Part shown: positions 3,269 to 19,452 of the stretch, piece after piece
How the letters are laid out: every line of letters starts with the position of its first letter
Numbering within the stretch: position 1 is the stretch's first letter
IMG/VR virus record: IMGVR_UViG_3300023278_001158
Coordinates: 1 to 21,513 of that record
Length of the DNA: 21,513 nt
Reading direction: 5' to 3' (one strand)
Source: a virus
Notes under the pieces: generated by a model
What the model saw: only the letters and a program-made list of their open reading frames with translations
What the model was told of the DNA's origin: nothing
Databases searched by the model: none
Made by a program: the position numbers and the translations under genes

Positions 3269-3270
3269 AG

Positions 3271-3276
3271 TAAATA
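3271..3276 (+). promoter_or_regulatory. Candidate T4-type late promoter upstream of the HNH gene
   Basis: TAAATA lies in the 27-base gap after gp5, 25 bases before the TTG start of the HNH gene and 5 bases before its ribosome-binding site GAGGG (3282-3286). T4-like phages use TATAAATA as the -10 element for late transcription. Two other gaps in this window have the same arrangement. This copy overlaps no stop codon or hairpin. Confidence 0.45.
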
Positions 3277-3295
3277 CAACTGAGGGAACAGACCA

Positions 3296-3841
3296 TTGAG
3301 CGATGTACTACTGTTAAATGCAGATGCAAGACCTTTAAGTTTATCCCCTCTGTCGATCATTTCATGGCAAATGGCTGTAAAGGCACACTTTGCCGATAAG
3401 GTTACGATTCTTAAGTCATACGAAGATCGTTATATTAGGAGTCAGCGGTTAGTAATGAAAAGACCACTAGTGGTAATTACTAACCGCTATCTTCGGCCAC
3501 CTAGCATAGTTAAATTTACTAGACGCAATTTGTTCTTGAGAGATAACTTTAGTTGTCAATACTGTAACAAACCATTCCCCTATAAAGAGTTAACATTTGA
3601 TCATGTATTGCCTCGCAGTTTAGGTGGTGATACCAGTTGGGAAAATGTTACAACTGCATGCCATAAATGCAATCTTGCCAAGGGCAATGATCCTAGCATC
3701 AAGCCTAAAAAGAAGCCAGTTGAGCCTTCATATTGGGATTTGATTAAACAAATACAAAATAGACCACACGGACAGCGCATACACCCAAACTGGTATGAGT
3801 ATTTGCCGTGGGAAGCCCCGTCTGTACAGGATGTTGCATAA
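3296..3841 (+). CDS. HNH endonuclease
   Basis: This 181-residue protein is a predicted metal-dependent DNA nuclease. The N-terminus VLLLNADARPLSLSPLSIIS matches the 'VLVLNA.Y.PL....W..A' opening of a widespread HNH family, which supports the TTG start at 3296; GAGGG at 3282-3286 is well placed and no ATG lies nearby in frame. The nuclease core is complete: zinc-binding Cys87-Cys90 and Cys122-Cys125, the catalytic Asp102-His103 pair (FDHVLPRSLGG) and Asn117 (WENV), with His123 inside the second Cys pair. The C-terminal 40 residues are basic and Pro/Trp-rich. It interrupts the baseplate genes, as free-standing phage homing endonucleases often do. Six of its 14 Ser codons are TCN and it uses CGG and AGG for Arg, unlike the neighbouring genes, which strongly prefer AGY and AGA; this hints at separate origin. 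A nested palindrome lies within the gene (3444-3488). Homing is inferred; a packaging or general nuclease role remains possible. Confidence 0.9.
   Translation: MSDVLLLNADARPLSLSPLSIISWQMAVKAHFADKVTILKSYEDRYIRSQRLVMKRPLVVITNRYLRPPSIVKFTRRNLFLRDNFSCQYCNKPFPYKELTFDHVLPRSLGGDTSWENVTTACHKCNLAKGNDPSIKPKKKPVEPSYWDLIKQIQNRPHGQRIHPNWYEYLPWEAPSVQDVA
3444..3488. repeat. Nested inverted repeat inside the HNH gene
   Basis: A perfect 13-base inverted repeat (AGCGGTTAGTAAT at 3444-3456, ATTACTAACCGCT at 3476-3488) encloses a perfect 12-base palindrome ACCACTAGTGGT (3463-3474). Together they could form a cruciform or a branched RNA hairpin. The repeat encodes residues about 50-64, just before the nuclease core. 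Confidence 0.7.
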
Positions 3842-3877
3842 AAATTCATAAATCCTCAAACCATGGTTTTCTGCCAT

Positions 3878-3885
3878 GATAAATA
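3878..3885 (+). promoter_or_regulatory. Candidate T4-type late promoter upstream of gp25
   Basis: GATAAATA lies in the 63-base gap before gp25. Its TAAATA core (3880-3885) is 25 bases before the ATG at 3905, and AGAGG (3892-3896) follows as the ribosome-binding site. This is the closest of the candidate sites to the T4 late consensus TATAAATA. Confidence 0.55.
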
Positions 3886-3904
3886 TAGTATAGAGGTATT
3901 ATGA

Positions 3905-4294
3905 ATGGTCAATCCAATTTACAAATTTTCAGGTTTTTCAAGCAAGACAGAGGACTTCTATCCTGTGCGCTTGCATGATATTGATCTAGCTAAACAGGAT
4001 CTACTAAACGAAATCTACACTCGCAAGGGCGAAAGATTAATGAGTCCAAATGTTGGAAGCATTGTTTGGGAGATGTTGTTTGACCCATTTACAGAACAAG
4101 CGTCAATTGATATTAGAAATGATATGATTCGTATTGTTAAAAGAGACCCTCGTTGGAATCTAGTTGAAGTAAACAGTAGTCAAACCACTGATCAAAATAC
4201 AATCCAAGTACAACTAGATTTAACTTATGTACCAACAACCGAACCAGTACAATTACTGGCAATATTCGAGGAAAGCGCGGCAGAGGCTGAATAA
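3905..4294 (+). CDS. gp25: gp25-like baseplate wedge protein
   Basis: At 129 residues it matches T4 gp25 (132). This small protein belongs to the gpW/gp25 family (TssE in type VI secretion) and in T4 sits in the inner wedge, joining the gp6-gp53 core to the first sheath ring. The family signature is visible: an N-terminal strand stretch around GFSSKTEDFYP, DIDLAKQDLLNEIYTRKGER (about residues 24-43), the MSPNVGSIVWEMLFDP motif, the helix about 65-80 (SIDIRNDMIRIVKRDPRW), then the closing beta strands. The ATG at 3905 has AGAGG eight bases upstream; the ATG at 3901 is out of frame. It lies two bases before gp6, its structural partner, so the two are probably translated from one transcript. Confidence 0.9.
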   Translation: MVNPIYKFSGFSSKTEDFYPVRLHDIDLAKQDLLNEIYTRKGERLMSPNVGSIVWEMLFDPFTEQASIDIRNDMIRIVKRDPRWNLVEVNSSQTTDQNTIQVQLDLTYVPTTEPVQLLAIFEESAAEAE

Positions 4295-4296
4295 AC

Positions 4297-7200
4297 ATGG
4301 CACAAGAAATTAGACAGAATAACCTATTTGCGGCAGAAAACTATCAGGCAATTTATGCCAGTTTTGCTAATGCAAACTTTAAGGCATACGATTATGATAC
4401 CATTCGCTCAGCAATGGTAACTTATATTCAAAACAACTATCCAGAGGACTTTAACGACTGGATTGAATCGAGTGAATTTGTTGCACTCATTGACTTGATG
4501 TCATTTCTCGGACACAACCTAGCGTTCCGTGCCGACCTAGGTGCTAGAGAAAACATTTTAGATACAGCAGAGCGTAGAGAGAGTGTACTACGAATTGCTC
4601 GCATGCTTTCCTATAATCCAAAAAGAAATATTGCCAGTGAAGGTATTATGAAAGTACTCAGTGTTCGCAGTGACGAAATCATTTACGATAGCAACAACAG
4701 AAACTTACAAAACCAAGAAATTACATGGGGCGATACAATTAACCCAGATGCATATGAGCAGTTTGTAAAAATTATCAACAGTGCATTTGTTAGCAGCAAC
4801 AGATTTGGTACGCCTACTAAAACTGTTACAGAGGATAATGTATTAACTCAACGCTACGAAATCAATACGCCAAGCATTCAAGAAATTGCACACAAGATTG
4901 GATTAAACCTAAACACTGTTAGAACCAGTGTTGAAGTGGTAAGTGCTGGCCTTACTGAAGCAGGCATAGTATACGAGCAAGAGCCTAATCCAAACGGAAA
5001 CTTTGGCATACTGTATCGCAATGACCAAGGTGGTCTTAAAAGTCCAAACAATGGTTTCTTTGCACTGTTTAAAGAAGGTACACTAAACTTCAGTGATACA
5101 CTGATTGAAAACCCAATTGAAAACCAAGTGATTGATATTGATGCAGAAAACATCAATGAAACTGATGTTTGGGTACAAACAATTGATGAAGATGGAACCA
5201 TTGAAGACAGTTGGACCAAAGTAGATAATACAGTGGGTAACAATGTTATTTTTAACAGTATCCAAAACGATATTAGAAAAATTTATGCAGTTATCACAGG
5301 CGATAACGATAGCATCAGTTTAAAGTTTGCTGATGGTAGATTCGGCGATGCTCCTAAAGACATTATCAGAACATGGTATAGAACCAGTTCTAATAGAAGC
5401 ATTGTTATTAGACCAGTTGACCTAAACAGAGTTGGCATACGAGTCCCCTACATTGGTAGAGATGGCCGCCAGTATACACTAACACTTAAAATGAGTCTAC
5501 AGTACACAGTTAGAAATTCAAGTGCTACATCAAGCATTGAAGATATTCGTGTTAATGCACCTGAAGTTTACGCAACACAGAATAGAATGGTAACTGCCAA
5601 AGATTATACAGTATATCCATTTACTAGCGGGTCAAGCATTAAGAAGATTAAAAGTATTAACCGTACCCACAGTGGACACAGTCGTTACAGTGACATTTAT
5701 GATCCAACAGGAACATATAAAGATCTAGATATATTTGCTGATGACGGGTACTTGTACAAAGAACAAATTATTAAACGCAAATCAGTTGCATTACCTAGCA
5801 ATAGAACACCTCGTGATATTACTAATAATGTTATCGGAAGTGCTATTAGAGACACAGAAAGTATCAACTTTTACTATGACAACTATCCAAGTTTAAGCAT
5901 CGCGACTGCGATGAAATGGAAGTTCCACACACAAACAAACGGAAATACTACAGGGTATATTAAAGACTCACTTGATGTAGTACAACGAGTTGGCAGTGCA
6001 GGCACAGGTGATTACAGATATCTAAAGCCAGGCGCCGTTATAGAATGGCAGACACCTGCAGGTGATCGTATCTTTACTAACATTTCATCAGTTGATGGCA
6101 GTGGCCTAGGTGTAGATGATGTTAACGGTAATGCTAGTGGACTTACACAAGATGGTAAAGGAACAATACTGATGAATGGTATACTACCTAACAACAGTGT
6201 TGCCCTTAGAGTTTGGCCAGTGTACAACTATAGATTTACAGCAGGTGAACGCAACAGTATTGTACAGAAATTAGGACAACGAACTAATTTTGGTATTAGG
6301 TATGATTATATTCAAAGCAGATGGAAAATTATTGAAGGTGACGATCTAGGTACAGGTGCATGGAGTTTAGCTAATGCAGGTAACACCAGCAAAAATAGTT
6401 TAGACACCAGCTGGATTGTGCGAGTAGAATATACTACTAACCAATATGTAATCAGCAATAGAACCACTCGTGTTGTAATGGCTAGCTCCGATGCCGTTAG
6501 ATTTTTTAACGAACTATACAGATACGAAATTAGTGAAACAGATAAAAAGTCACAACGAGATCAAATTCGTGTGCTTGAGATTAACACTAAGCCAGGAAGC
6601 AGTGATGCACTTGGAGAAGAAATTGTATATAATATCAATGGCTATTATCAATATGAAGATGGCTATACAGATCCACGCCGCGCAATCATTGCATTGATTG
6701 ATCCAGATCTAGATTATATTCCAAGCGACCCAACTGCATTTGAAAAGATTGTTGGCACAGAACAAGTGTATCTTAAAACAGAAACAGAGTACGGATTTAC
6801 ATATGAAGTACTAGGAACTGCAAACGATTATTCTAGATTGATCAGTGGTAGAAGCAATTTAAAATTCCATTGGAAACACTACAGTGAAGGTGATCATAGA
6901 ATCAATCCTAGTGTAACCAACATCATTGACACATTCATGTTAACCGACGGTTATGATACAGACTTTAGAACATGGCTTGTACTAGATGGCGCAGAGTCAA
7001 CAAGACCGCTACCGCCTACAACTGAAACACTAAGACAACAGTTTGCTGATCTAGAAGAAGTTAAAATGGCCAGTGACACTATTATCTTTAAGCCTGCCAA
7101 ATACAAAATTATGTTTGGTAACGAAGCAGACAGCGAACTAAGAGCAAAATTTAAAGTTGTAAAAGTTCTAGGTACTAGTTATACTGACAATGACATCAAG

Positions 7201-7476
7201 AGTAAAGTAATTACTGCAATTAACAATTTCTTTGCATTAGAAAATTGGGACTTTGGAGAAACTTTTTACTTCACTGAGCTTAGTGCATATATTCACAATG
7301 AGCTAGTTGGAATAATTAGCAGTGTAGTTATTGTACCGCAAGATGATAACAGTAGATTTGGAAACCTTTTCCAAGTTACTCCAGACAGTGACGAATTATT
7401 CATTAGCAGTGCAAAAGTAGCAGATGTACAAATCATCAGCCAAATTACTGAAACTAACATTAGGGTCAACTCATAA
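4297..7476 (+). CDS. gp6: gp6-like baseplate wedge protein
   Basis: In T4, gp6 forms the dimeric ring that ties the six wedges together and opens when the tail contracts. This homologue has 1059 residues against 660 in T4, as marine relatives often do. The N-terminal 130 residues are the conserved helical part (DWIESSEFVALIDLMSFLGH, then RADLGARENILDTAERRESV). The baseplate-J-like core carries NAPEVYATQNRMVTAKDYTV (about 420-439), the usual 'AP..y.tqnR.vT..DY' motif. The extra length falls largely in a middle region (about 480-800) of beta-rich, Asn/Thr-rich sequence. The C-terminal about 120 residues (SYTDNDIKSKVITAINNFFA, then FGETFYFTELSAYIHN) again match the family. AGAGG at 4282-4286, inside the end of gp25, serves the ATG. 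The stop shares its last base with the ATG of the next gene (TAATG), implying coupled translation. Confidence 0.88.
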   Translation: MAQEIRQNNLFAAENYQAIYASFANANFKAYDYDTIRSAMVTYIQNNYPEDFNDWIESSEFVALIDLMSFLGHNLAFRADLGARENILDTAERRESVLRIARMLSYNPKRNIASEGIMKVLSVRSDEIIYDSNNRNLQNQEITWGDTINPDAYEQFVKIINSAFVSSNRFGTPTKTVTEDNVLTQRYEINTPSIQEIAHKIGLNLNTVRTSVEVVSAGLTEAGIVYEQEPNPNGNFGILYRNDQGGLKSPNNGFFALFKEGTLNFSDTLIENPIENQVIDIDAENINETDVWVQTIDEDGTIEDSWTKVDNTVGNNVIFNSIQNDIRKIYAVITGDNDSISLKFADGRFGDAPKDIIRTWYRTSSNRSIVIRPVDLNRVGIRVPYIGRDGRQYTLTLKMSLQYTVRNSSATSSIEDIRVNAPEVYATQNRMVTAKDYTVYPFTSGSSIKKIKSINRTHSGHSRYSDIYDPTGTYKDLDIFADDGYLYKEQIIKRKSVALPSNRTPRDITNNVIGSAIRDTESINFYYDNYPSLSIATAMKWKFHTQTNGNTTGYIKDSLDVVQRVGSAGTGDYRYLKPGAVIEWQTPAGDRIFTNISSVDGSGLGVDDVNGNASGLTQDGKGTILMNGILPNNSVALRVWPVYNYRFTAGERNSIVQKLGQRTNFGIRYDYIQSRWKIIEGDDLGTGAWSLANAGNTSKNSLDTSWIVRVEYTTNQYVISNRTTRVVMASSDAVRFFNELYRYEISETDKKSQRDQIRVLEINTKPGSSDALGEEIVYNINGYYQYEDGYTDPRRAIIALIDPDLDYIPSDPTAFEKIVGTEQVYLKTETEYGFTYEVLGTANDYSRLISGRSNLKFHWKHYSEGDHRINPSVTNIIDTFMLTDGYDTDFRTWLVLDGAESTRPLPPTTETLRQQFADLEEVKMASDTIIFKPAKYKIMFGNEADSELRAKFKVVKVLGTSYTDNDIKSKVITAINNFFALENWDFGETFYFTELSAYIHNELVGIISSVVIVPQDDNSRFGNLFQVTPDSDELFISSAKVADVQIISQITETNIRVNS

Positions 7477-10400
7477 TGGCGAGAAATTATAAAAGTCAGG
7501 CCAAGCCTGTTGTAAAAAATTTAACGATTCCAGGACGCACCAAGCGTGATTATTCTAGTAGAAAAAGTGAGGATTTTCTTCCTCGCTATCTCCGTAGCGA
7601 TATAAACAAAAAGTTCTTAGATGCAACACTAGATCAGTTAATTGGAAATGGAAGTGCAGAGCGTATCAATGCTTTCTATGGAAGTAAAACAGGCCTAGTA
7701 AACAATCCGCAACAAGACTTTTATCAAACCAGTACTAACAAACTAAAAGAAGATTTTAGACTTGCGCCTGGTATTGTTAGCCGACCAGATGGTTATACAA
7801 GCGAAACCAAAGTGCATCTAACATATGATGACATCATTAATAGAATTGATTACCTTAAGGGTATTACAACCAACCATGATAAACTTTTCCAAGACATTAA
7901 CTATGTGTGGAGAAGTATTATTAATCCAAACAAGCTGATTAATTTTAACGATTACTATTGGTTTGAATTTGATTTGCCAGTTTGTGTGATCAGTACTGAA
8001 GTTAATCCGCTAACTGATGTAATTGGAAATCCATATTTTACATTTAGCGGAAATTCCGTACATCCGCCTCTGAGACTTATCAACGGACTTAAGATAGCGT
8101 TTGATGAAGAAACTATTAATATGTTTCCTGATCTAGGGTATACTGATAGAGATGGTTACTTTGTTAGTAGAGAATACATTGTAGAAGGCGTCGGCGATAA
8201 GATCATGCTTATTGATCTAACCAAGTTTAGTAGAAAAACGCCATACACTGATCGTGTTCCAATTCCATGGGATACAACAGGATGGGATTCAAACAATGCA
8301 CCATGGGATGGCAGCGATGATATCCCTAACCTAAAAGATTATATTGTTATGCAACGAGGCGCATGCGACAGAAACGCATGGAGTCGAGTTAACCAATGGT
8401 ATCACATCAATGCAATCAAACTGTCATATAACTTTAATAATCTAGTATTAACAGAACGAGATCTAGATAGCGCACAAGCCAAACGCCCAATCATTGAATT
8501 TTGGAGAGACTATAGACTATACAATTTTGGTACACAGGCAGTAAGCACAGTCAAAGAAATCATCACTGACAAAAGTTGGCCTGCAAGTGTAATGGGGTCA
8601 AGTGGTGATGTTCTTACACCTGGTGGCCGCGAAGTGTTTGAAGGTGATGTGTTTATGTTTAACACACCTGACGAACCACAGTATTATAGCAGAATGTGGC
8701 GTGCAACGCAAGTAGGTGTTAATCTACAATGGGTACTGGTTACAACTACCAGTGGCGTCAATGGTTACCCTGCACTTTGGGACAAAATACTAGACACTGT
8801 TACAGGATTTGAATATTACTGGAATGGCGACATTTGGTTTAAAGGTCAGCAAAAGTTAAGTGAAAATCAAAGTCCTTTGTTTGATCTTTATGATCACAGC
8901 GGACTTAGAATCAGTGACACTAGCACATTCCCTAACAATAACTTTACTGGTAACACAGTATTTGAATTTAAACTAGCAGATACTAGAATCCTTGATTCAG
9001 AATTAGGTATCAGTGTACTCTACAATGATAGCTACGGACTAAGTCAAGGCGTCTTTAAAAAGTTTGCTAACATTGTGTTCACTAACACACTTGAACAAGA
9101 TGTGTACAGTTATAACCTTGACACTGTACCAACTGAAATTGTAGGCTACTACTATTTGAGAAACAACTGCACAGGCGAGTTTAACTGCGGTTGGGATCCT
9201 GTAAAAACAGTTAACAGAGTAAAGCTACACGAAAATAGAGTAATTAAAAAAGGTACAACCACACTGGATATTGATCTTAAAACAGACAGTTGGGACGGTA
9301 CACTTAATCAATATAGAGAATATGAATTTGTATACACTTCTGCAGGGTATGAAGTATACGAGATACTGCCATTTGCAAAAAACAAAATGAGCGGATTGAA
9401 TCCTGACATCTTTATTACACGAGATCAAGCATACAACTTTATATACAACAGTGGTACAAGCCCATTGAGCATTGTTGATAAAAATGGAAACATTTGGACA
9501 GGCGGCGTAATAGGAGCCAGCCCAATTACCAGCGGCACATTTACAATCAATATTAACAGTCAAACATATCCTAATTTAGAATACTTGTACTACAATGGTG
9601 TTGCAGGCCGCGGCCGCATTTATATTATTGACCAAGGCACACAAGAACACTTCCCTGAAGTTAGGTACAACGGAAAATTGTGCAATTATCAAGTTGACTT
9701 TGATATTATAAACAACCATGTTGTAATGCCTATTGCTAATAACATTACACCTAAAGTGGTTGAATCTCTGGCGGAAAACGATGTTGTTGATGTATACTAT
9801 ACCAGCAACGAAAATGTTGCAAATCCAACATATACTGTTAGTGAAAGTATTAAAAACAATCCCAATAACGATACATTTGGAAATATTGCATACAACGAAG
9901 TGTGGGAACACTTTACTACACTGTTGAACAATTACAATGGCTTTAATGGATATGCATTTGGTAAAAACAACTTTGAAGAACTTCCAAGACAGCTAGGTGT
10001 ACAAGGTACTATCCAACAACATGAAAATAACATGCTATTGGTAGGACCGTTGTTTGGCAACTTTGATTACAGCATTGTTAATGCTCTTAGATATAATGGT
10101 GATCAAGTCGATAGATTTAGAAACAAGTTTAAACAAACTGTTACTAGAATATACGAGCAAAGCAACGCAAATACACCAATCTATAGGTTAGTTGATCTTG
10201 CACTAGAAGATATTAACTTTGGTAAAAGCAGCGAGTTTCCGTATGCTCATAGTGGCATGGCTTACTACTCAAATATCACAGAATACAGTTATACCGCAGA
10301 CGGAACAGATCCAATATACGAATTTGAAAGTGCAATTGAACTAGGCGAATATGCTCAACATGTATATGTGTATGTTGATGGTGTTCAATTGTTAGTGGAC

Positions 10401-13400
10401 CGTGACTATACAATTTCTACAACAGAAATTCAGTTTACATCTGCACCAACAGGCGCAGTTGTAGTACGAGTTGCAAACAAAAATGCTAGCACTTACATTC
10501 CAACAACTCTTCCTAAAATGTTGCTAGAGCCTGCAACACTACCTGAGCTAGGTGCAGATTACTTGATTTGTCATGATGGCGCAAGGTGGGAAGCACTAAG
10601 CGAATTTGATAAAGTTAACCAAGCAATACTAGATCTAGAATATAGAATATACAATCACCTAGAAGCCGCTACTAAAACAGCCCGACTAGATAGAAAGCTA
10701 TATCCTAGCAGAAGCAGAGTACACTTTATTGGTGGCTATGAGTATCTAGACCTTGCAGAAGATAGATTTAACAGTTATATTATCAGCAAGGGATACAGTG
10801 TAGCACAAAAAGATCAGTTGTTTAAAAATGTAAATTGGAATACAAATGCATTTGAAAAGAACTATAGCAGCACTGCAAAATATCCTTATAGTCCTGGTTA
10901 CTACAAGGGCATGTATAATTGGCTATTTGACACAATTACTCCACACCTAACACCATGGCACAGTTTAGGGTATAACATCAAACCATCGTGGTGGGATGCA
11001 CACTATCCAAGTCCAGATGTATCAGGCAGCTGGGGCGATGCACAAAAAGTATCTGACTTTAAAGAAGCAATGCGTGTAGGCAATGTTGCAGAGCCCGATA
11101 CCCCTTATCAAATTGATTTGCAATATGCAAGAGGTTCAGCAAGCGCAGAGTATCCAGTTACTCCAACAGGTCAACTAATGGATCCATACAGTGCAGGTCT
11201 TGCAGCAGATCCTGGTGTTAACGGCGCAGACGATTTTAAATTTGGTGACATGTACGGCATTGAAGCAGAATGGCAAAACACAACTGAATTTAGATTTGCA
11301 ATTTATGAACTTAGATTGATATTACAACCTGGTACATTCCTTAAAGATTGGAATACCAACTTGTACACTACCAGTATTAATGGCGAACGAGTTCTTGCAA
11401 AAACAATGAAAAGAACAACACCAGCCGACTTGTTGATGCACAGACAACTAGACGATACTGGCAACGAATTACAGGTTAGTGGCATTAACCAAATTCTAGT
11501 AGAGTATTTGCGTAGTAAAAACCAAGACGGAACTGAACTAGCCACTGATATTAAAACACTAGAGCCTGCACTATCGTTTAAACTAGAAGGCTTTACTGAT
11601 GCAAGAACAGTGCGTCTAGTAACTGACGGTATTAACAGTAACAACGATAGATTTGTTCCTGAAGAAGATTTTGAAATCAGCTTGTACCTAAGTCCGCCGC
11701 TAGAAGAATACACTATGAGCAGTATCAGCATTACATGGACCGGTGATGCATATGAAATTAATGGTAAAGACAATGTTGAAGCGTTCTTTACTGTACTGCC
11801 AAGTGATCGTAACGGTAAGACCACTGATATACAATTTGGGTCAGACACCATTGTTAAATTCTTATCATGGAGCGACACAAGCCAGCAGGTGTTGTATGGT
11901 ACAGAATACACTCGTCGTTCAGATGTGTATGACCTGTTTATTGCATACGGTCGTTGGTTAACAAAGATCGGATTTGTATTTGACAATGAAAAAACATTTG
12001 AAGATGCAGCAGGCAAGTTTATTAATTGGAGTAAATCAACTCTATCACCAGGTGATACAATTGTTATTAGCCCGTTTGAAGATAAAGTTGTATTCGATGC
12101 AAATGGTAAAGGCTTTATCGGAAACACCAGAAGTCTTATTAACGAAGTTTACAACATTAAAGATCTAGTAGACAAAGAAATTACTGGTAAGGATATTAAT
12201 GTAAGTAGACTAGACAACCTTGTAACAATTCTACCTACCGGCGAGCAGAAATTGTATTTTACTAGATTGTATACTAGTGAATACGATCATGCTGTTACAC
12301 TAAGCGGCATTACTAGATTTGAAGATATCATTTACAAATCAGTATTTGGTATGCAGATTCATAGAATTAAATTTGTTGGACAAAAGACAGGCGACTGGTT
12401 TGGTGCACCTAAAGCAAATGGTTATTTGTTAGCAGACAACCTGCTGGTACAAAACTTTGAAAAGACTGTGAACGATGTTGACCGCGGACTGTTTGATGTT
12501 GAAGAAACAGTTCTTAACCCAACCATGGTTGATGCAGCTCGTCACAACATTGGATATACCACACAGGACTATCTCAAGAAATTGTTGTTTAACAAAGATG
12601 TGAGCTTTGAGTTCTGGAAAGGTTTAATCCACAAAAAAGGTACTCCTAGTTCTTATAAAAATCTATTGCGTTCAATTGATATTGATAACGAAATCAGCGA
12701 TGTTGAAGTACAAGAAGAATGGATGTTCAAACTGGGCGAATATGGCGGGCAGGGGCTTACTAAGAATTATGAAATTGAATTAACACCAACTGATCTAAAG
12801 CATAACCCACAGATTGTAAACTTTGTGCAAGACATTAGAGAAGATCGTGTAACCAATAAAGAACTGCAATACGATACTCGTGTAACAGTTACAACCAACG
12901 ATACTCGCTGGGTTAACAAGCCAGAAGGTAGCATATCATTCCCTACACTAAATGACAGTGCATATAACGCAGTTGCATTACCAAGTGCAGGAAATGTTTG
13001 GGAACACGAAGCAACATTTATGTTGTTTGATGAAAATGGATTTAGAGCCACAGTTGCACCAGAAATATTACCTTACAGTATTCCTAACTGGATTAACGGT
13101 GTTGAGTATGATGCAGGCGCACAAGTTAGATACAACGGCAGAGTATGGGAAGCAACAACTTCAAGCGATAGCAACGGTTTAAATGAGCCAAATGTATTGC
13201 AGTTTGTACAAATAGAAGAACCAGAGCTACCTACATTCTGGTTAGCTAAAAACGCTAACGGCACCGCAGATCTATTAAAAGCACAAGATGATACCTACGC
13301 AATTATTGAAATTTGTGCAGGATTAACCAGTCAGGATCAAGCACTGGTCAAGTGCGATAAAGCACACAACTTAGCAGTAGGTGACTTTGTAATGATTGTT

Positions 13401-16400
13401 AACAGTAGCACAACACCAAGTGTTAACGGAGTGCATAGAGTTTCAAACATTCAAAGCGATGAGTGGTTCTTGATTGATGCGTACATATCAACTAAAGGAT
13501 TTACTGGCAAGTTCTTTCCATTAAGAACAATGATGTTTGCTGATGTTGATGCAATGGATGCCGCAATAACAGATCCTCGCTACAAAATTAGACAAAATGA
13601 TATTGTGTATACGCCAACTGCGGTGTACCGATACAACGGCAGTTTAACCGGTACTTGGAATATTATTAGAACCAGTGATGCACCAGTTGATAATACTGCA
13701 TTGACCAATGTTAGATTGTACAACAATGCACAAAACAATATCATTGCAGAGTTTGAAGCATATGATCCTAGAAAAGGAATCATTCCTGGCAGGGCACAAA
13801 AAGAAATAAACAGTATGTCATACTATGACAATGCAGTGTATTCGCATACCAACAGTGATTCGCATACAGATGAAGTTAGATATTGGGGTGTTAACAAACT
13901 TGGAACAACATGGTGGGATACCAGCAGTGCAGTGTTCCAAAACACAGAACAAACCAGTGCAACCCATCCGGAATATAGACACACACATTGGGGTAAACTA
14001 CATCCTAGTGCAAGTATTGATATTTACGAATGGACTCAAGGCACAGTAACTCCTGACAAGTGGTCTACTGCAAAACAGGGCCAAGGTGTTCCTTACTACC
14101 TAACAGATCCATATGGTAATAGAACATACTTTTGGAGTGAAGAAGAACTTCCAGATCCTGTTACAGGACAAATGAAAATATACTACTTCTACTGGGTAAG
14201 AAACAAAACCAGCGTACCTAATATCAACAACAGACAACTTAGCACAACCGCTATGGCCAGAATGATAGAAAATCCAACTCGTCAAGGCATATTATGGTGC
14301 AGTGCAACTGGAGAGTCAGATCTATTAATTGCAAACAGTAGCAATTATGTAGTTGACAATAATTGTGTACTAGAGTTTACATTCAAAAGCGGTACCGTTC
14401 CAAATCATGAAGAATGGATGTTGCTCAGAGAAAACGACAGCGATATACCTGTGTTCTTCCACAAAAGAATGCGTGACAGTATGGTTGGGCAATCAACCAG
14501 CTATCAAAGTTTTAGTTATACTACATTTAGCCATACAGTAGATTATCCGTTTGGTAGTATTGTAGAATATAACAACGCCATCTACAGAGCAACTGCTAAT
14601 AACACACCACGCCCATTTGCAAGCGGTGCATGGCAAGAGCAGTACAGATATAAGATTAACAATGTAGGCAGAGTTGAACTGTTGGTATTTAGACCTGTAC
14701 CAGATCTGGATCAACATCCGCTGATGCGTTATGGCAACCAAACTAGACCTGCACAAGCATGGTTTGAGTTTAAAGACAGTGCTAGACGAGTGTTTGTAGA
14801 ATCAGCTAATAGACTGTTAGCACAAATGAACCTAGTAGATGAAATACTAGACTGGGATAAAACACTTGGCCTTACTGCATATGATACTGGAACGGCAACA
14901 TATGATGTTACAAAATATTGGTCATATGTTGATTGGTTTAATGCTGATTGGGACAGAAGTGGACTACCAGAAAAAGACATTGCAAACAGACTAGCATTAG
15001 AATCTGAAACACCAACTGCTAACAGACTTATTCGTGTACTAAACGACGGACAAAATCGTTATGAAATCTATCTAGGTAACGGCACGGACTGGGTTCTAGT
15101 AGAAAAACAAAATGCTACAATTGAACTAAGTGGTAAACTGTGGGACTTCTATATCGACAACAGTGGTTGGGATATGGATCCGTTTGATAGCGGCGTATGG
15201 GACGAATATCCAACAGTTGAGTTGTTTAACATTATTAATGCATTGCGCTATGATGTATTTGTAGGAGATTACAAAGTAAACTATAACAAGTTATGGTTCT
15301 CTATGATATACTACACAATGAGCGAGCAAGAAAAAGTAGATTGGATTGCTAAAACAACCTTGCTACAAGTTAAAACTAGAAGCCAAGGTAATATTCAAAT
15401 CAACTTGTATAACAAAGAAATCAGTGATACAATTGTTGAATACATCAGTGAAATTAAACCGTTCCACACCAAGTTGCGTAATGTGTTTAACATCAAAGAG
15501 TTTGATGACGCTACTACTGCTGAAATCACAGAAGACTCACGCACAGGTAAGATTGTGCTTAAATTTGATAGACACGGCAAGCCTCGTTGGAATCAAACAA
15601 TGGTTGATGCTGCAAACTTCTGGGTACTAGAGCCTGGATATGATATGGCACCATGGGAAGCAATATATACTAACTGGCCAAACTTTGTAAGTAAAGCAAG
15701 ATCACTAGACGGCACACTAAAAGAAAGACAAGCCAAGTACCCAGATGGCAGTCCTAGATTTGATCAATGGGGCATGCCAGTAATGGAAACATTCTGGGAA
15801 CCAAAGCAACCATCTGATTATGATGTAGAGCCGCATATTGAAACCAGTACTAGACCTTGGGATGTTGATCGCCAAACACTAGAAGATCTATATATAGGAA
15901 CCATTTATGATGGATACGGCTTCCAGCGAGACACACAACGAGATGCAAGCGATACCCAACCAACTGTTGATACATCAAAAGTAACTACAGACGACGATGC
16001 GATTGAAGATCCAATTGAAACAATTGTAGAGGGCAATGCCTTTATTCAACCGCATTATGAAGGTTATCCAGAAGAAGAAGTTCCGGTACTACCGTTTGAT
16101 GCAGTGAGTATTCGTGTACAAACTAATACTAGCGGAAGCACCGAAACAGGTGCTTCAAGAACATTCCACCTGTTTAAAGACATGTTAGGAGACTTCCATA
16201 TTCATCGTGTAAATGACCTAGGTAAAACTATGTTAAATACTAACATAGATCAGATTACCACTTCAATTGAAGTGCAAGATGCCAGTGTTCTTACTGTATC
16301 CGATGCAGTTAACCTTGTGCCTGGCGTTATTTGGATTGGGTCTGAACGAATCGAATATTGGGGTATCAACGGAAATATACTAGTAAATTGTGCTAGAGGC

Positions 16401-16604
16401 ACATTAGGTACTGCTGCACAGTCACATCAGCTCAATGATATGGTTGTTGATCAAGGCAGACAACAAGATATACCGGGCATTGCCAGGTTTGTTCGTTACG
16501 GAGATCAACTAAAACCTGCATTTAATGACGCAGGAACCGAACTCCAAAACAGTACAAACGCAGAAGCAAACTTTATTAACCAAGTTAAAGGTACAATATG
16601 GTAA
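7476..16604 (+). CDS. Giant tail/baseplate structural protein (gp7 position)
   Basis: This 3042-residue protein follows gp6, where T4 has gp7 (1032 residues). The opening (SEDFLPRYLRSDINKKFLDA, FYGSK) matches the N-terminus of very large structural proteins of T4-like marine phages, which probably act at the baseplate edge. Visible modules: a conserved region about 110-180; Trp-Asp-rich turns at about 264-280 (PWDTTGWDSNNAPWDG), 2482-2497 and 2563-2580; two segments like chitin/cellulose-binding CBM5/12 modules, NWINGVEYDAGAQVRYNGRV (from 1871) and YPFGSIVEYNNAIYRAT (2357-2373); and a C-terminal beta module about 2918-2995 with IGSERIEYWG and CARGTLGTAA, common in phage and bacterial surface proteins. 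No protease, hydrolase or membrane segment is evident. AGGG at 7462-7465 serves the ATG. The frame is intact over 9.1 kb, so strong selection maintains it. Whether it replaces gp7, gp8 and gp10 together, or adds a fibre-like part, cannot be told here. Confidence 0.8.
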   Translation: MARNYKSQAKPVVKNLTIPGRTKRDYSSRKSEDFLPRYLRSDINKKFLDATLDQLIGNGSAERINAFYGSKTGLVNNPQQDFYQTSTNKLKEDFRLAPGIVSRPDGYTSETKVHLTYDDIINRIDYLKGITTNHDKLFQDINYVWRSIINPNKLINFNDYYWFEFDLPVCVISTEVNPLTDVIGNPYFTFSGNSVHPPLRLINGLKIAFDEETINMFPDLGYTDRDGYFVSREYIVEGVGDKIMLIDLTKFSRKTPYTDRVPIPWDTTGWDSNNAPWDGSDDIPNLKDYIVMQRGACDRNAWSRVNQWYHINAIKLSYNFNNLVLTERDLDSAQAKRPIIEFWRDYRLYNFGTQAVSTVKEIITDKSWPASVMGSSGDVLTPGGREVFEGDVFMFNTPDEPQYYSRMWRATQVGVNLQWVLVTTTSGVNGYPALWDKILDTVTGFEYYWNGDIWFKGQQKLSENQSPLFDLYDHSGLRISDTSTFPNNNFTGNTVFEFKLADTRILDSELGISVLYNDSYGLSQGVFKKFANIVFTNTLEQDVYSYNLDTVPTEIVGYYYLRNNCTGEFNCGWDPVKTVNRVKLHENRVIKKGTTTLDIDLKTDSWDGTLNQYREYEFVYTSAGYEVYEILPFAKNKMSGLNPDIFITRDQAYNFIYNSGTSPLSIVDKNGNIWTGGVIGASPITSGTFTININSQTYPNLEYLYYNGVAGRGRIYIIDQGTQEHFPEVRYNGKLCNYQVDFDIINNHVVMPIANNITPKVVESLAENDVVDVYYTSNENVANPTYTVSESIKNNPNNDTFGNIAYNEVWEHFTTLLNNYNGFNGYAFGKNNFEELPRQLGVQGTIQQHENNMLLVGPLFGNFDYSIVNALRYNGDQVDRFRNKFKQTVTRIYEQSNANTPIYRLVDLALEDINFGKSSEFPYAHSGMAYYSNITEYSYTADGTDPIYEFESAIELGEYAQHVYVYVDGVQLLVDRDYTISTTEIQFTSAPTGAVVVRVANKNASTYIPTTLPKMLLEPATLPELGADYLICHDGARWEALSEFDKVNQAILDLEYRIYNHLEAATKTARLDRKLYPSRSRVHFIGGYEYLDLAEDRFNSYIISKGYSVAQKDQLFKNVNWNTNAFEKNYSSTAKYPYSPGYYKGMYNWLFDTITPHLTPWHSLGYNIKPSWWDAHYPSPDVSGSWGDAQKVSDFKEAMRVGNVAEPDTPYQIDLQYARGSASAEYPVTPTGQLMDPYSAGLAADPGVNGADDFKFGDMYGIEAEWQNTTEFRFAIYELRLILQPGTFLKDWNTNLYTTSINGERVLAKTMKRTTPADLLMHRQLDDTGNELQVSGINQILVEYLRSKNQDGTELATDIKTLEPALSFKLEGFTDARTVRLVTDGINSNNDRFVPEEDFEISLYLSPPLEEYTMSSISITWTGDAYEINGKDNVEAFFTVLPSDRNGKTTDIQFGSDTIVKFLSWSDTSQQVLYGTEYTRRSDVYDLFIAYGRWLTKIGFVFDNEKTFEDAAGKFINWSKSTLSPGDTIVISPFEDKVVFDANGKGFIGNTRSLINEVYNIKDLVDKEITGKDINVSRLDNLVTILPTGEQKLYFTRLYTSEYDHAVTLSGITRFEDIIYKSVFGMQIHRIKFVGQKTGDWFGAPKANGYLLADNLLVQNFEKTVNDVDRGLFDVEETVLNPTMVDAARHNIGYTTQDYLKKLLFNKDVSFEFWKGLIHKKGTPSSYKNLLRSIDIDNEISDVEVQEEWMFKLGEYGGQGLTKNYEIELTPTDLKHNPQIVNFVQDIREDRVTNKELQYDTRVTVTTNDTRWVNKPEGSISFPTLNDSAYNAVALPSAGNVWEHEATFMLFDENGFRATVAPEILPYSIPNWINGVEYDAGAQVRYNGRVWEATTSSDSNGLNEPNVLQFVQIEEPELPTFWLAKNANGTADLLKAQDDTYAIIEICAGLTSQDQALVKCDKAHNLAVGDFVMIVNSSTTPSVNGVHRVSNIQSDEWFLIDAYISTKGFTGKFFPLRTMMFADVDAMDAAITDPRYKIRQNDIVYTPTAVYRYNGSLTGTWNIIRTSDAPVDNTALTNVRLYNNAQNNIIAEFEAYDPRKGIIPGRAQKEINSMSYYDNAVYSHTNSDSHTDEVRYWGVNKLGTTWWDTSSAVFQNTEQTSATHPEYRHTHWGKLHPSASIDIYEWTQGTVTPDKWSTAKQGQGVPYYLTDPYGNRTYFWSEEELPDPVTGQMKIYYFYWVRNKTSVPNINNRQLSTTAMARMIENPTRQGILWCSATGESDLLIANSSNYVVDNNCVLEFTFKSGTVPNHEEWMLLRENDSDIPVFFHKRMRDSMVGQSTSYQSFSYTTFSHTVDYPFGSIVEYNNAIYRATANNTPRPFASGAWQEQYRYKINNVGRVELLVFRPVPDLDQHPLMRYGNQTRPAQAWFEFKDSARRVFVESANRLLAQMNLVDEILDWDKTLGLTAYDTGTATYDVTKYWSYVDWFNADWDRSGLPEKDIANRLALESETPTANRLIRVLNDGQNRYEIYLGNGTDWVLVEKQNATIELSGKLWDFYIDNSGWDMDPFDSGVWDEYPTVELFNIINALRYDVFVGDYKVNYNKLWFSMIYYTMSEQEKVDWIAKTTLLQVKTRSQGNIQINLYNKEISDTIVEYISEIKPFHTKLRNVFNIKEFDDATTAEITEDSRTGKIVLKFDRHGKPRWNQTMVDAANFWVLEPGYDMAPWEAIYTNWPNFVSKARSLDGTLKERQAKYPDGSPRFDQWGMPVMETFWEPKQPSDYDVEPHIETSTRPWDVDRQTLEDLYIGTIYDGYGFQRDTQRDASDTQPTVDTSKVTTDDDAIEDPIETIVEGNAFIQPHYEGYPEEEVPVLPFDAVSIRVQTNTSGSTETGASRTFHLFKDMLGDFHIHRVNDLGKTMLNTNIDQITTSIEVQDASVLTVSDAVNLVPGVIWIGSERIEYWGINGNILVNCARGTLGTAAQSHQLNDMVVDQGRQQDIPGIARFVRYGDQLKPAFNDAGTELQNSTNAEANFINQVKGTIW
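16228..16248. repeat. Short perfect inverted repeat in the giant gene
   Basis: CTATGTTA (16228-16235) and TAACATAG (16241-16248) form an 8-base stem around a 5-base loop and include a TAAATA. The stem is AT-rich and is not followed by a T run, so a terminator role is unlikely. It lies at the start of the C-terminal beta module and may mark a module junction or be chance. Confidence 0.4.
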
Positions 16605-17302
16605 AAACTGAATCTGCTAAAATTAATGAGATAAATATTGATAACAAAGGTATAAATGGAATGGACAAACTTAATCGCGAAGATAGCAATGTTATGATGG
16701 AAGGCCACATCAAGATCTGGGATCCAGAGAGTGGTGATATCTATATCAATAAACGAAATGCTATTAACTTTGAAAATATGAGTATTGCTCTTGCTCAGAG
16801 TCTGAGTAACAGAGGAGAAGGTACTGTATATGAACTACATTTTGGTAATGGTGGTACTGTTGTTACTGCAACAGGCACTGTTGAATATAGAACGCCTAAC
16901 ACTGACGGCCAAAGCGAAGATTTATACAACGCTACATTCTTTAAAGTGATTGACGAGTCTGATACCTTTAACAATACCGACATTACACAAAACTATATGG
17001 AAATAAGCCATGTAGCAGGAACTAACTACACTGACATTATTGTAACATGTACACTAGACTATGATGAGCCTAGTGCAACAGATACAACATTTAATCTAGC
17101 CGGTGTAGATCAAGATGTTGTTGACAACGCAACAGACTTTAACGGTAGTTTTGTTTTTGATGAACTTGGGTTGAAAAACAAAAGCGCCAGCGCAAATTTG
17201 AACGAAGGGCTGCTATTGACCCATGTGGTTTTCCACCCTGTTCAAAAGAGTGCTAACAGACTACTCCAGGTAGTTTATACATTGCGTGTTCGCGCAGGTT
17301 AA
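16598..17302 (+). CDS. Virion structural protein of the marine T4-like type
   Basis: The protein has 234 residues from the ATG at 16598. The section from about residue 36 (GHIKIWDPESGDIYINKRNA, then FENMSIALAQSLSNR and LHFGNGGT) matches a family of virion proteins found beside fibre genes in cyanophage-type genomes; its exact role is unknown to me. The rest is predicted beta-rich, ending FHPVQKSANRLLQVVYTLRV. The ATG overlaps the giant gene's stop (ATGGTAA) and has AAAGG six bases upstream, favouring 16598. A second in-frame ATG at 16661 (residue 22) also has AAAGG ten bases upstream and starts nearer the conserved part, so a 213-residue form is possible. It is followed by a 46-base gap with a candidate late promoter. 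Confidence 0.75.
   Translation: MVKTESAKINEINIDNKGINGMDKLNREDSNVMMEGHIKIWDPESGDIYINKRNAINFENMSIALAQSLSNRGEGTVYELHFGNGGTVVTATGTVEYRTPNTDGQSEDLYNATFFKVIDESDTFNNTDITQNYMEISHVAGTNYTDIIVTCTLDYDEPSATDTTFNLAGVDQDVVDNATDFNGSFVFDELGLKNKSASANLNEGLLLTHVVFHPVQKSANRLLQVVYTLRVRAG
16630..16637 (+). promoter_or_regulatory. Possible internal late-promoter motif before the alternative start at 16661
   Basis: GATAAATA is identical to the motif before gp25, lies 29 bases (from its TAAATA) before the in-frame ATG at 16661 and is followed by AAAGG (16646-16650). It falls inside the coding frame, so it may be chance. Confidence 0.22.
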
Positions 17303-17324
17303 TGAGCATAAAGCTATAAAACGG

Positions 17325-17330
17325 TAAATA
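17325..17330 (+). promoter_or_regulatory. Candidate T4-type late promoter upstream of the 344-residue fibre-type gene
   Basis: TAAATA sits in a 46-base gap, 24 bases before the ATG at 17349, with AGAGG (17336-17340) as ribosome-binding site. Spacing and order match the sites at 3271 and 3880. No terminator hairpin is seen between the preceding stop and this site. Confidence 0.5.
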
Positions 17331-17348
17331 CACATAGAGGAATAATAA

Positions 17349-18383
17349 ATGGCATACGATATTAACAAAAGCGATGGCTCACTACTAGTAACAGTAAACG
17401 ACGGCAAAATTGAAGATACTGCTAGCAGTATTAAATTGGTCGGCAAGAACTACACTGGATATGGTGAATTTATCGCAGAAGATTTAATCCACATGCTAGA
17501 GCACTTTGCTAACACCAGTGCGCCTAGCAGTCCACAAATTGGACAATTATGGTTTGATAAGTCATCAAACAAACTGAATGTTTATGACAACAGCGGTAAC
17601 TGGAAAGAAATTGCACAATTGGTTGCAACAGGTACAGAACCAAATTCAAGCACACGACTAACAGGCGACCTTTGGTGGGACACTGCTAATGAAGTGCTTT
17701 ACATTTGGAACGGTACAAAGCATGTTCCAGTTGGTATTGGTAGCGGTAGCACCAGTATCAGAGTTGTAACTATTTTAGATACAGGTGGCACGCCACATAT
17801 TTGTATCGCAAATATTCATGACAACAGATTTGTCAGTGTTATGAGTGGAGACAGCTTTACTCCAGCAAACACTGAACTACAACCAGATAATACACTTATT
17901 GTTAGCGAGTTTCCAAGTATCGGAAAAGGTGTTAACATGACAAACAGAGCAGACTTTAAATTTAGAGGTACTGCAACTGTTGCTGAATATGCTGACTTGG
18001 CTGAAAGATATCATTCAGGTAAACCACTTGAGCCAGGCACGCTAGTTGGCATTCACTCAAGCATTGAGTATGAAATTGCAGAAACAACTAGCATTGCAAG
18101 CCCTTGGGTATTTGGTGTTATTTCAACTGCGCCAGGCGTTGAGCTAAACGCTAATGCAGGCGGTGATGACACACACCCGTTTGTAGCACTAACAGGACGA
18201 GTTCCATGTAAAGTAATTGGCCCAATTAGAAAAGGTCAAAGACTTGTAAGTAGTGCAACACCTGGTGTTGCAAAAGGCGCCGCAATTGGTGACACACCAT
18301 GGGAAGCAATTTTTGGTAGAGCGTTAGAAAATTACGATAGCGAAGAAGTCGGAATTATCGAAGTTGTAGTAGGAGTAAAATAA
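17349..18383 (+). CDS. Tail fibre-like structural protein
   Basis: This 344-residue protein starts MAYDINKSDGSLLVTVNDGK, then LVGKNYTGYGEFIAEDLIHM, the standard N-terminus of a structural/fibre family in marine T4-like phages; it probably attaches the protein to the virion. Two similar short modules follow: GQLWFDKSSNKLNVYDNSGNW (split here as GQLWFDKSSN at 65-74 and KLNVYDNSGNW at 75-85) and GDLWWDTANEVLYIWNG (106-122), both of pattern 'G.LW.D....L..(Y/W)(D/N)G'. Residues about 210-344 form a conserved C-terminal domain (YADLAERY, then ALTGRVPCKVIGPIRKGQR and ALENYD) seen at the ends of many phage tail proteins, perhaps an assembly or trimerisation domain. The ATG is eight bases after AGAGG. 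Receptor binding is not shown by the sequence. Confidence 0.8.
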   Translation: MAYDINKSDGSLLVTVNDGKIEDTASSIKLVGKNYTGYGEFIAEDLIHMLEHFANTSAPSSPQIGQLWFDKSSNKLNVYDNSGNWKEIAQLVATGTEPNSSTRLTGDLWWDTANEVLYIWNGTKHVPVGIGSGSTSIRVVTILDTGGTPHICIANIHDNRFVSVMSGDSFTPANTELQPDNTLIVSEFPSIGKGVNMTNRADFKFRGTATVAEYADLAERYHSGKPLEPGTLVGIHSSIEYEIAETTSIASPWVFGVISTAPGVELNANAGGDDTHPFVALTGRVPCKVIGPIRKGQRLVSSATPGVAKGAAIGDTPWEAIFGRALENYDSEEVGIIEVVVGVK

Positions 18384-18384
18384 A

Positions 18385-19389
18385 GTGCCAACACTAGGGT
18401 ATCCAATTACCGCAGCAGAAGCAAATGTGTTGGTGGACTTGATCAATAAGATCTTTGCCGACAGATATGCAGCCAGCGCCTATCCAGGTGCTCCTGCAGG
18501 CTATGCAAATGCGTTCAAATATGGCTGGGGTGGACCTAGTACATATCAAGTTGCCATTGGCGACGAAGTTTTAGCAAAAGATCTTAATGAAGTTATCCAC
18601 AGAGCTAATATAGGTATTGATGTTACTAATGTTAGTAACAGCTACCTAGCGGTTAGGAACCCTCAAGCAAAGGTATTCGCAAGTGACTTTAACATTGTTC
18701 AATCAATGCTCAACAACATTGAAGCAAACAAAAGTACAGGCGACGACAGTGTATATAGTGTAACCAGCAGAGCAACAGATACAAGAACATCAACTTGGAC
18801 TTCCAATATTGATGTTGTATTTGATTTACAATTTGCTAGTTATAATAAAGCACGATACTTTTTCAACAGTGACGGACAAGCAAGATTCTTATTGTATGCA
18901 GCCAATGGATCCACTGCTGCATATTCACAATGGATTAACATCTATACACAATTGGGTACAGTGAGTGTTACACTAGACAATACAACACAAACAGGAACTG
19001 GCGGCGTTAGCACCAGCAAGGGTTTCTACGACTTAACAACAGACGGCAACTGGACACTACTGTTCACTAGTGGTAGTGGAGGCAGTGGTGGTTATGGCGG
19101 ATATGGCGGCTATGGAGGCTACGGCGGATATGGAGGCTACGGCGGATATGGCGGCTACGGAGGTTATGGTGCATATGCTAGCATTAGAGCCAAGTTATAC
19201 GGTAGACTAAATACTGATGGAAGCCTAGTTCAACTTAGAGTATCGCTAGAAAACCAAGCACTCGGATCAACAGTAGATGGTAGTCACACAGTAGAAATGC
19301 AGCAGCGTAAACTAAATGATCAAACCAACTCTGGCGTTACATTAGTAATCGACGCACCGACAGCAGCAGTTTCAGATACACTCGAATAA
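18385..19389 (+). CDS. Glycine-tyrosine-repeat structural protein, possible tail-tip adhesin
   Basis: The protein has 334 residues and starts at GTG (18385), one base after the previous stop, with AGGAG at 18371-18375; no ATG competes and the conserved opening TLGYPITAAEANVLVDLINK supports this start. Residues about 1-130 are helical and look like a virion-attachment part. Residues about 145-230 are beta-rich, with ARYFFNSDGQARFLLYAANG, a strand pattern often found in phage tail proteins. Residues 235-261 are nine perfect Gly-Gly-Tyr triplets, preceded by Gly/Ser and followed by Gly-Ala-Tyr. About 70 further beta-rich residues follow. Regular glycine spacing can build polyglycine-II helices, as in the gp38 adhesins at the fibre tips of some T4-like phages, so a host-contact role is a reasonable inference. 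An elastic linker is the alternative. It is the last gene before the sigma70-type promoter. Confidence 0.72.
   Translation: MPTLGYPITAAEANVLVDLINKIFADRYAASAYPGAPAGYANAFKYGWGGPSTYQVAIGDEVLAKDLNEVIHRANIGIDVTNVSNSYLAVRNPQAKVFASDFNIVQSMLNNIEANKSTGDDSVYSVTSRATDTRTSTWTSNIDVVFDLQFASYNKARYFFNSDGQARFLLYAANGSTAAYSQWINIYTQLGTVSVTLDNTTQTGTGGVSTSKGFYDLTTDGNWTLLFTSGSGGSGGYGGYGGYGGYGGYGGYGGYGGYGGYGAYASIRAKLYGRLNTDGSLVQLRVSLENQALGSTVDGSHTVEMQQRKLNDQTNSGVTLVIDAPTAAVSDTLE
19087..19167 (+). repeat. Nine tandem 9-base units encoding Gly-Gly-Tyr
   Basis: Nine in-frame units (GGN GGN TAY) run without interruption. Variation is confined to third positions, and an 18-base higher-order unit is visible: GGCGGATATGGAGGCTAC at 19123-19140 recurs with one change at 19141-19158 and with two at 19096-19113. 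This points to recent duplication by slippage or unequal recombination. Confidence 0.95.
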
Positions 19390-19397
19390 AATAATAG

Positions 19398-19426
19398 TTG
19401 ACATATTCCAAGAAAAAGTATATACT
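19398..19426 (+). promoter_or_regulatory. Sigma70-type promoter before the small-gene/glycosyltransferase block
   Basis: TTGACA (19398-19403) is a perfect -35 box, separated by exactly 17 bases from TATACT (19421-19426), a five-of-six -10 box. Transcription would start near 19433 and give a leader of about 20 bases carrying GGAG (19439-19442) before the ATG at 19453. It lies in a 63-base gap that lacks the TAAATA motif of the other gaps, so these genes may be read by unmodified host polymerase. Confidence 0.75.
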
Positions 19427-19427
19427 T
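19416..19427. promoter_or_regulatory. Palindrome over the -10 box, possible operator
   Basis: AAGTATATACTT is a perfect 12-base palindrome that covers the TATACT box. A dimeric repressor bound here would block the promoter. Its AT-richness makes a chance origin plausible. Confidence 0.3.
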
Positions 19428-19452
19428 ATACAAATTCTGGAGATACAATAAT

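Follow-up and report, generated by a model that had tools for sequence, protein, structure and literature searches.

The window, by which we mean the whole stretch of DNA analysed here, is a fragment of 21,513 bases from an uncultured phage and makes up the entire record. When 50,697 phage records were searched at the nucleotide level, none matched it. Its gp6-like protein shows 35-42% identity to its jumbo-phage matches (PA5oct, Atu_ph07, CBB, RaK2, 121Q and others). The genes follow each other in the order gp5-type hub/lysozyme, HNH endonuclease, gp25, gp6, a 3042-aa protein, a phrog_11259 protein, a virion-type protein and further genes (Table 1). The nearest relatives are two contigs, L004 and L007, the gp6 proteins of which are 62-63% identical to that of the window. 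Searches with the lysozyme and the giant protein and among bacterial genome contigs confirmed no further relatives, and a neighbouring gene of L007, used as a query, matched only itself.

The TTG start assigned to the HNH gene is backed by an ATG of L007 in the same alignment column. This gene, placed between hub and gp25, has a predicted late promoter and a Shine-Dalgarno (SD) site of its own, an arrangement kept in L004 and L007; in other relatives the interval between hub and gp25 carries different cargo. Relatives of the HNH gene sit in other contexts, and among those with readable starts only the one in contig L248 is preceded by TAAATA at a comparable spacing (28 bases). Further downstream, positions 18385-19389 encode a protein of 334 aa that contains a glycine-tyrosine repeat (GGYGGYGGYG...) and for which no family match was found.

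Table 1. Genes, predicted late promoters and ribosome-binding sites discussed in the text (window coordinates).
Feature	Position	Strand	Remarks
TAAATA, predicted gp55-type late promoter (-11 to -6) of the HNH gene	3271..3276	+	also in L004 (2245) and L007 (7450)
GAGG, Shine-Dalgarno-like	3282..3285	+	predicted +1 at 3282, leader 14 nt (T4 rule)
HNH endonuclease gene	3296..3841	+	TTG start; phrog_16726, 8.9e-30
TAAATA, predicted late promoter of the baseplate operon (gp25, gp6, giant virion protein)	3880..3885	+	position, conservation
GAGG	3893..3896	+	predicted +1 at about 3891, leader 14 nt (T4 rule)
gp25-like baseplate wedge gene	3905..4294	+	phrog_261, phrog_43; N-terminus aligned
gp6-like baseplate wedge gene	4297..7476	+	phrog_10646; 2 bases 3' of gp25, without own promoter
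TAAATA, predicted late promoter of the 17349 gene	17325..17330	+	also 5' of homologues in L084-L088
GAGG	17337..17340	+	predicted +1 at about 17336, leader 13 nt (T4 rule)
Probable virion/tail-fibre-type protein gene	17349..18383	+	phrog_6427, phrog_14394; weak tail-fibre families
Sigma-70-like site, TTGACA-N17-TATACT	19398..19426	+	11/12 matches; fourth gap, without TAAATA

The window has four same-strand gaps longer than 25 bases (3269-3295, 3842-3904, 17303-17348 and 19390-19452). As stated in the preliminary description, three of them carry TAAATA 24-25 bases before a start codon, each time followed by GAGG; they precede the HNH gene, the gp25-gp6 baseplate operon and the virion-type gene. 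At the sites at 3271, 3880 and 17325 the first T of TAAATA lies 25, 25 and 24 bases from the start codon, the spacer between TAAATA and GAGG comprises 5, 7 and 6 bases, and GAGG stands 10, 8 and 8 bases before the start, rather than 8-9 bases as first described. All six letters of the hexamer are present at each site, and the bases at -13/-12 are AG, GA and GG, where T4 has TA (TATAAATA at -13 to -6). In a read-through RNA the gp25 gap would be foldable by CATGG...CCATG (-14.0 kcal/mol for 63 bases), a fold that overlaps the promoter as well as the ribosome site.

On both strands together the window contains eight copies of TAAATA, about three times fewer than expected (26.3 +/- 4.8). The other five all lie within genes; the three on the plus strand had been listed before, one of them now being corrected to 16234, and two on the minus strand (14691 and 14026) had been missed. 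Three of the six plus-strand copies fall inside the 199 gap bases (P = 1.6e-5). The occurrence of TAAATA at 20-30 bases in at least three of the four gaps has a P of 1.8e-6 with the composition of the window and of 2.8e-4 with the AT-rich composition of the gaps themselves. These values speak against a chance origin, in which AT-rich gaps and TAA stop codons simply yield TAAATA near starts. Such an origin would agree with the behaviour of the full string TAAATA-N4-8-GAGG, which is significant with window composition (P = 5e-4) and loses significance when the base composition of the gaps is assumed for the entire 21.5 kb (P = 0.11). However, same-letter hexamers other than TAAATA show less enrichment, and the sites are conserved in L004 and L007 and enriched in complete relatives. 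Chance is thus strongly disfavoured and the least probable of the alternatives weighed here.

In L004 and L007, TAAATA is found 23 bases before the starts of the HNH gene and of gp25. The sequence GATAAATAT at the gp25 promoter, i.e. the 3880 site of the window, is identical in both contigs, and their spacers and SD letters (GGAG, GGAGGG, AAGGA) differ from those of the window. L007 has an extra TAAATA about 19-25 bases before the start of a gene annotated at 413. TAAATA occurs within 70 bases 5' of gp25 in 52 of 68 related contigs; of the other hexamers with these letters, the runner-up is found in 29 and most in fewer than 10. Before ORF starts it is enriched in every long relative, as measured by the share of copies with a start within 60 bases in comparison to other A4T2 hexamers: 57% vs 8.8% in the environmental relative G002, 48% vs 19% in Phosso, 38% vs 9.8% in CBB, 31% vs 9.7% in Atu_ph07 and, as a modest excess, 12% vs 7.5% in PA5oct. 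The CBB genome contains 168 copies of TAAATA against a mean of 615 for the other same-letter hexamers, and this depletion, together with the high share before ORF starts, suggests that stray late promoters are avoided.

What is enriched in the relatives is TAAATA at a set distance and not the literal TAAATA-GAGG string. The preliminary description had proposed a special fused unit of promoter and SD site. As a group-wide unit TAAATA-N4-8-GAGG has to be rejected, since in eleven relatives and comparators it is no commoner than its reversed pattern; the relatives vary the SD core (GGAG, AGGA) as well as the leader length, and the T4 genes 19 and e are already equally compact with shorter leaders. 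The constrained distance to the start could also point to an RNA leader element, namely one in longer read-through transcripts that enhances translation or marks a processing site, the more so as folding around the ribosome site is possible in late leaders of T4 (PMC3014915). Yet the distance varies widely among phages while the hexamer remains constant, boxes of an 11-base class described below directly abut the start codon without any SD site, and TAAATA agrees with the late promoter published for this group. We regard an RNA element as highly improbable.

Of 20 relative records, 14 contain a match to the family 'sigma factor for late transcription' (phrog_12791), whereas the 14 control genomes contain none. 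The late sigma factor of PA5oct has an additional match, to the late sigma family phrog_234 (1.1e-17), and its gene is divergent and located just ahead of the late cluster. Positions 1-296 of L007 encode an N-terminal fragment (first 98 codons) of a gp55-like late sigma factor (5.9e-17), which is placed as in PA5oct and is 38% identical to the PA5oct protein. The 21.5 kb of the window, which begins downstream of that point, contain no sigma gene. Four records (G007, G008, G009 and G018, those of L052, L009, L055 and L044; loci L165-L168) have a late sigma gene whose match to the family is split in two (positions about 4-199 and 185-282). Both parts lie in a single open frame of 427-631 aa, and the insertion of about 140-330 codons that separates them looks like an intein. 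In another record, G021 (L248, 139,590 bases), TAAATA-N4-6-ATG occurs 18 times against 3 in the reversed control, and no match to phrog_12791 was found.

The sites could instead be -10 elements of host sigma-70 promoters, which would be active throughout infection. TAAATA resembles TATAAT, and in bacterial leaderless genes a TANNNT box precedes the start by about 12 bases (PMC3160421). However, the last base of the hexamer is A, whereas sigma-70 -10 elements need T, and no -35 element is apparent, as three-way alignments of the window, L004 and L007 (three sequences only) contain no conserved upstream hexamer. In addition, the single clear sigma-70-like site of the window falls in the gap without TAAATA, and the relatives encode a late sigma factor of their own. 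Recognition by host sigma-70 is the foremost of the alternatives and nevertheless very unlikely.

We consider it highly likely (probability about 0.87) that the three TAAATA sites are T4-type late promoters, with mRNAs predicted to run from GAGG and leaders of 13-14 nt. A gp55-family sigma factor encoded by the phage would direct the host RNA polymerase to a short -10-like element without a -35 element. By the T4 rule, carried here to distant relatives, the +1 is predicted about 11 bases past the first T of TAAATA; transcription would start at GAGG or 1-2 bases before it, and each late mRNA would have its SD site at the 5' end of the short leader. In this way the three sites would provide for late expression of the HNH gene, of the baseplate operon (gp25, gp6 and giant protein) and of the 17349 gene. 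This reading builds on the position of the sites, their conservation, their scarcity elsewhere and the sigma family in relatives, from which their use, exact start and timing are predicted. CBB is reported to have no recognisable gp33 and gp45 (PMC5259590), so that the activation step may differ from that in T4.

The fit to T4 late promoters noted at the outset has gained from the orthologous sites in relatives, the late sigma factor of these relatives and the published late motif of CBB/GAP32. The window is best read as containing a genuine and ordinary set of T4-type late promoters with very short predicted leaders, which would be of a known kind. The description of these mRNAs as near-leaderless holds insofar as they would begin at GAGG by the T4 rule, but the predicted leaders of 13-14 nt with an SD site are longer than the 5 nt or so of a leaderless mRNA. 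The idea fits several relatives better, which look truly leaderless.

In three environmental relatives, G001, G002 and G003 (400, 310 and 152 kb analysed), a second class of ORFs has TAAATA only 9-13 bases before an ATG. It comprises 28, 16 and 7 ORFs, where 3.4, 0.8 and 0.8 are expected from same-letter hexamers (Poisson P = 9e-17, 6e-16 and 2e-5). Few distances of 14-21 bases and many of 22-45 bases are found in these genomes. T4, CBB, PA5oct, Phosso and Atu_ph07 show no clear excess at 9-13 bases. SD sites are present in 0/28, 0/16 and 1/7 of the near class, an absence that is partly forced because the box occupies the space of the SD site, and in 32/49, 19/38 and 11/14 of the far class of G001, G002 and G003 (50-79%). 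The start codons at 9-13 bases are ATG in 51 cases (5.0 expected), GTG in 3 (2.0) and TTG in 1 (2.8), the last two thus being close to chance. Near-class starts are also consistent with protein homology: the alignment of gp25 proteins from near- and far-class phages runs from the first methionine, and a tail-sheath-stabilizer-type protein and a virion protein (phrog_14802) match their families from residue 1.

Some members of the 9-13-base class are probably false. The baseplate hub of G001 (distance 9) was rejected as a leaderless candidate, as its family homology begins at the second methionine, and it may be leadered. A 3-base periodicity among the longer distances proved to be a filter artefact, because an in-frame TAA counts as an upstream stop. 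In G001 (L169-L188), 7 of the 28 near-class genes start with a short [LI]xE peptide like the prohead-targeting sequences of T4, against a background of 25 among the 639 ATG ORFs that encode 100 aa or more; that a prohead-targeting N-terminus is common to leaderless genes is only suggestive.

The cultured pelagiphage HTVC008M, which encodes a late sigma factor, has 13 ORFs in the 9-13-base class, where 2.1 are expected; in ten of these the distance is exactly 11. Its deposited annotation agrees with these starts, and according to it the first 50 kb contain nine genes at exactly 11 bases and one at 12; the next follow at 24, 24, 27 and 36, all four with GGAG. The near class includes gp2, gp4, gp48, gp25 and the tape measure gene, and gp3 outside the first 50 kb. 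Between the divergent genes gp2 and gp4, 26 bases (18917-18942, L307) hold two outward TAAATA boxes, each 11 bases from its ATG. Among marine contigs related to HTVC008M (near-duplicates included), TAAATA lies exactly 11 bases before the ATG of gp48 in 32 of 33, a spacing that holds down to 41% identity with differing spacer letters, and at 11-14 bases before gp25 in all 30 readable ones. XacN1 shows a smaller excess (12 vs 4.8 expected, P = 0.004), and the annotated gp25 starts of XacN1 and RAS14 have TAAATA at 12 or 11 bases. Tenacibaculum phage PTm1 was dismissed as a near-class candidate: the simple pattern gave 54 vs 28, but the ORF-aware count only 11 vs 8.1.

A leaderless class is thus predicted for the three environmental relatives, HTVC008M and, more weakly, XacN1. 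In these phages the promoter would mostly lie at one of two distances. At about 11 bases the +1 would fall on the A of ATG and give a leaderless mRNA, and at about 24 bases or more there would be room for an SD site. The space of 14-21 bases is sparsely used; a leader there would be too short for an SD site. It is quite probable that pelagiphages such as HTVC008M and several jumbo lineages transcribe core late genes (gp2, gp4, gp25, gp48, gp3, tape measure) as leaderless mRNAs from gp55-type promoters about 11 bases from the ATG, with a second late set at about 24 bases or more that usually has SD sites, and with distances in between being rare. The sites of the window would belong to the shortest edge of this second set. 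Leaderless late mRNAs in relatives are a well-supported prediction, and a limited search of the open-access literature brought up no previous account of T4-type late promoters that yield leaderless transcripts.

Our reading would explain how the late genes of the window are switched on, and it adds an uncultured lineage of jumbo phages to the range of the T4 late-promoter system. If confirmed, one conserved phage promoter, shifted by a few bases, would present the host with either leadered or leaderless mRNAs. This choice bears on translation during infection, in which initiation factors and ribosome states may change. For gene calling, the 11-base rule would pin start codons in phages without SD sites. 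Since HTVC008M is cultured, the leaderless prediction is directly testable.

In T4, the late consensus spans -13 to -6 (PMC2988020), and variants at -13/-12 are known from Aeh1 (a/gC; PMC2988020) and S-PM2 (N; PMC2984593). In annotated late-region genes of T4 we found TAAATA 15-52 bases before the start (median 33). T4 is the exception to the two-distance pattern, with a few genes at 15-20 bases. Gene 19 (TAAATACTACAGAGGCTAATATG) has TAAATA, CTACA, GAGG, CTAAT and ATG in succession (distance 20), and the nearer promoter of gene e (TAAATACTTAGGAGGTATTATG) has TAAATA, CTTAG, GAGG, TATT and ATG (distance 19); late transcripts of gene e begin immediately 5' of its ribosome site (PMC3014915). The T4 system (gp55/gp33/gp45), in genes 19 and e, shares with the window the TAAATA core, the lack of a -35 element and a predicted start at the SD site. 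It differs in the TA at -13/-12 and in the predicted leaders, which are 8-9 nt for genes 19 and e and mostly 19-23 nt, in contrast to 13-14 nt in the window.

The cyanophage late promoter NATAAATA (S-PM2, Syn9; PMC2984593) has the same core and a free base at -13. In the cyanophages Syn9 and P-SSM2, TAAATA-N4-6-ATG shows no clear excess over the reversed control (7 vs 10 and 13 vs 11). A map of the transcription start sites of Syn9 has reportedly been published. In CBB, a related jumbo phage, an ATAAATA late motif was described at 35 places 5' of structural genes together with a gp55-like sigma factor (PMC5259590). The CBB/GAP32 promoter resembles that of the window in its core, its neighbours (gp25, gp6, giant protein) and the gp55-like sigma factor (PMC5259590), whereas the distances in CBB are mostly 25-55 bases and the leaders therefore longer. 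The 11-base class, finally, resembles those leaderless genes of bacteria that carry a TANNNT box 12 bases ahead of their start codon (PMC3160421), in that the element abuts the ATG without an SD site; unlike in these genes, the box is a T4-type TAAATA and the sigma factor is encoded by the phage.
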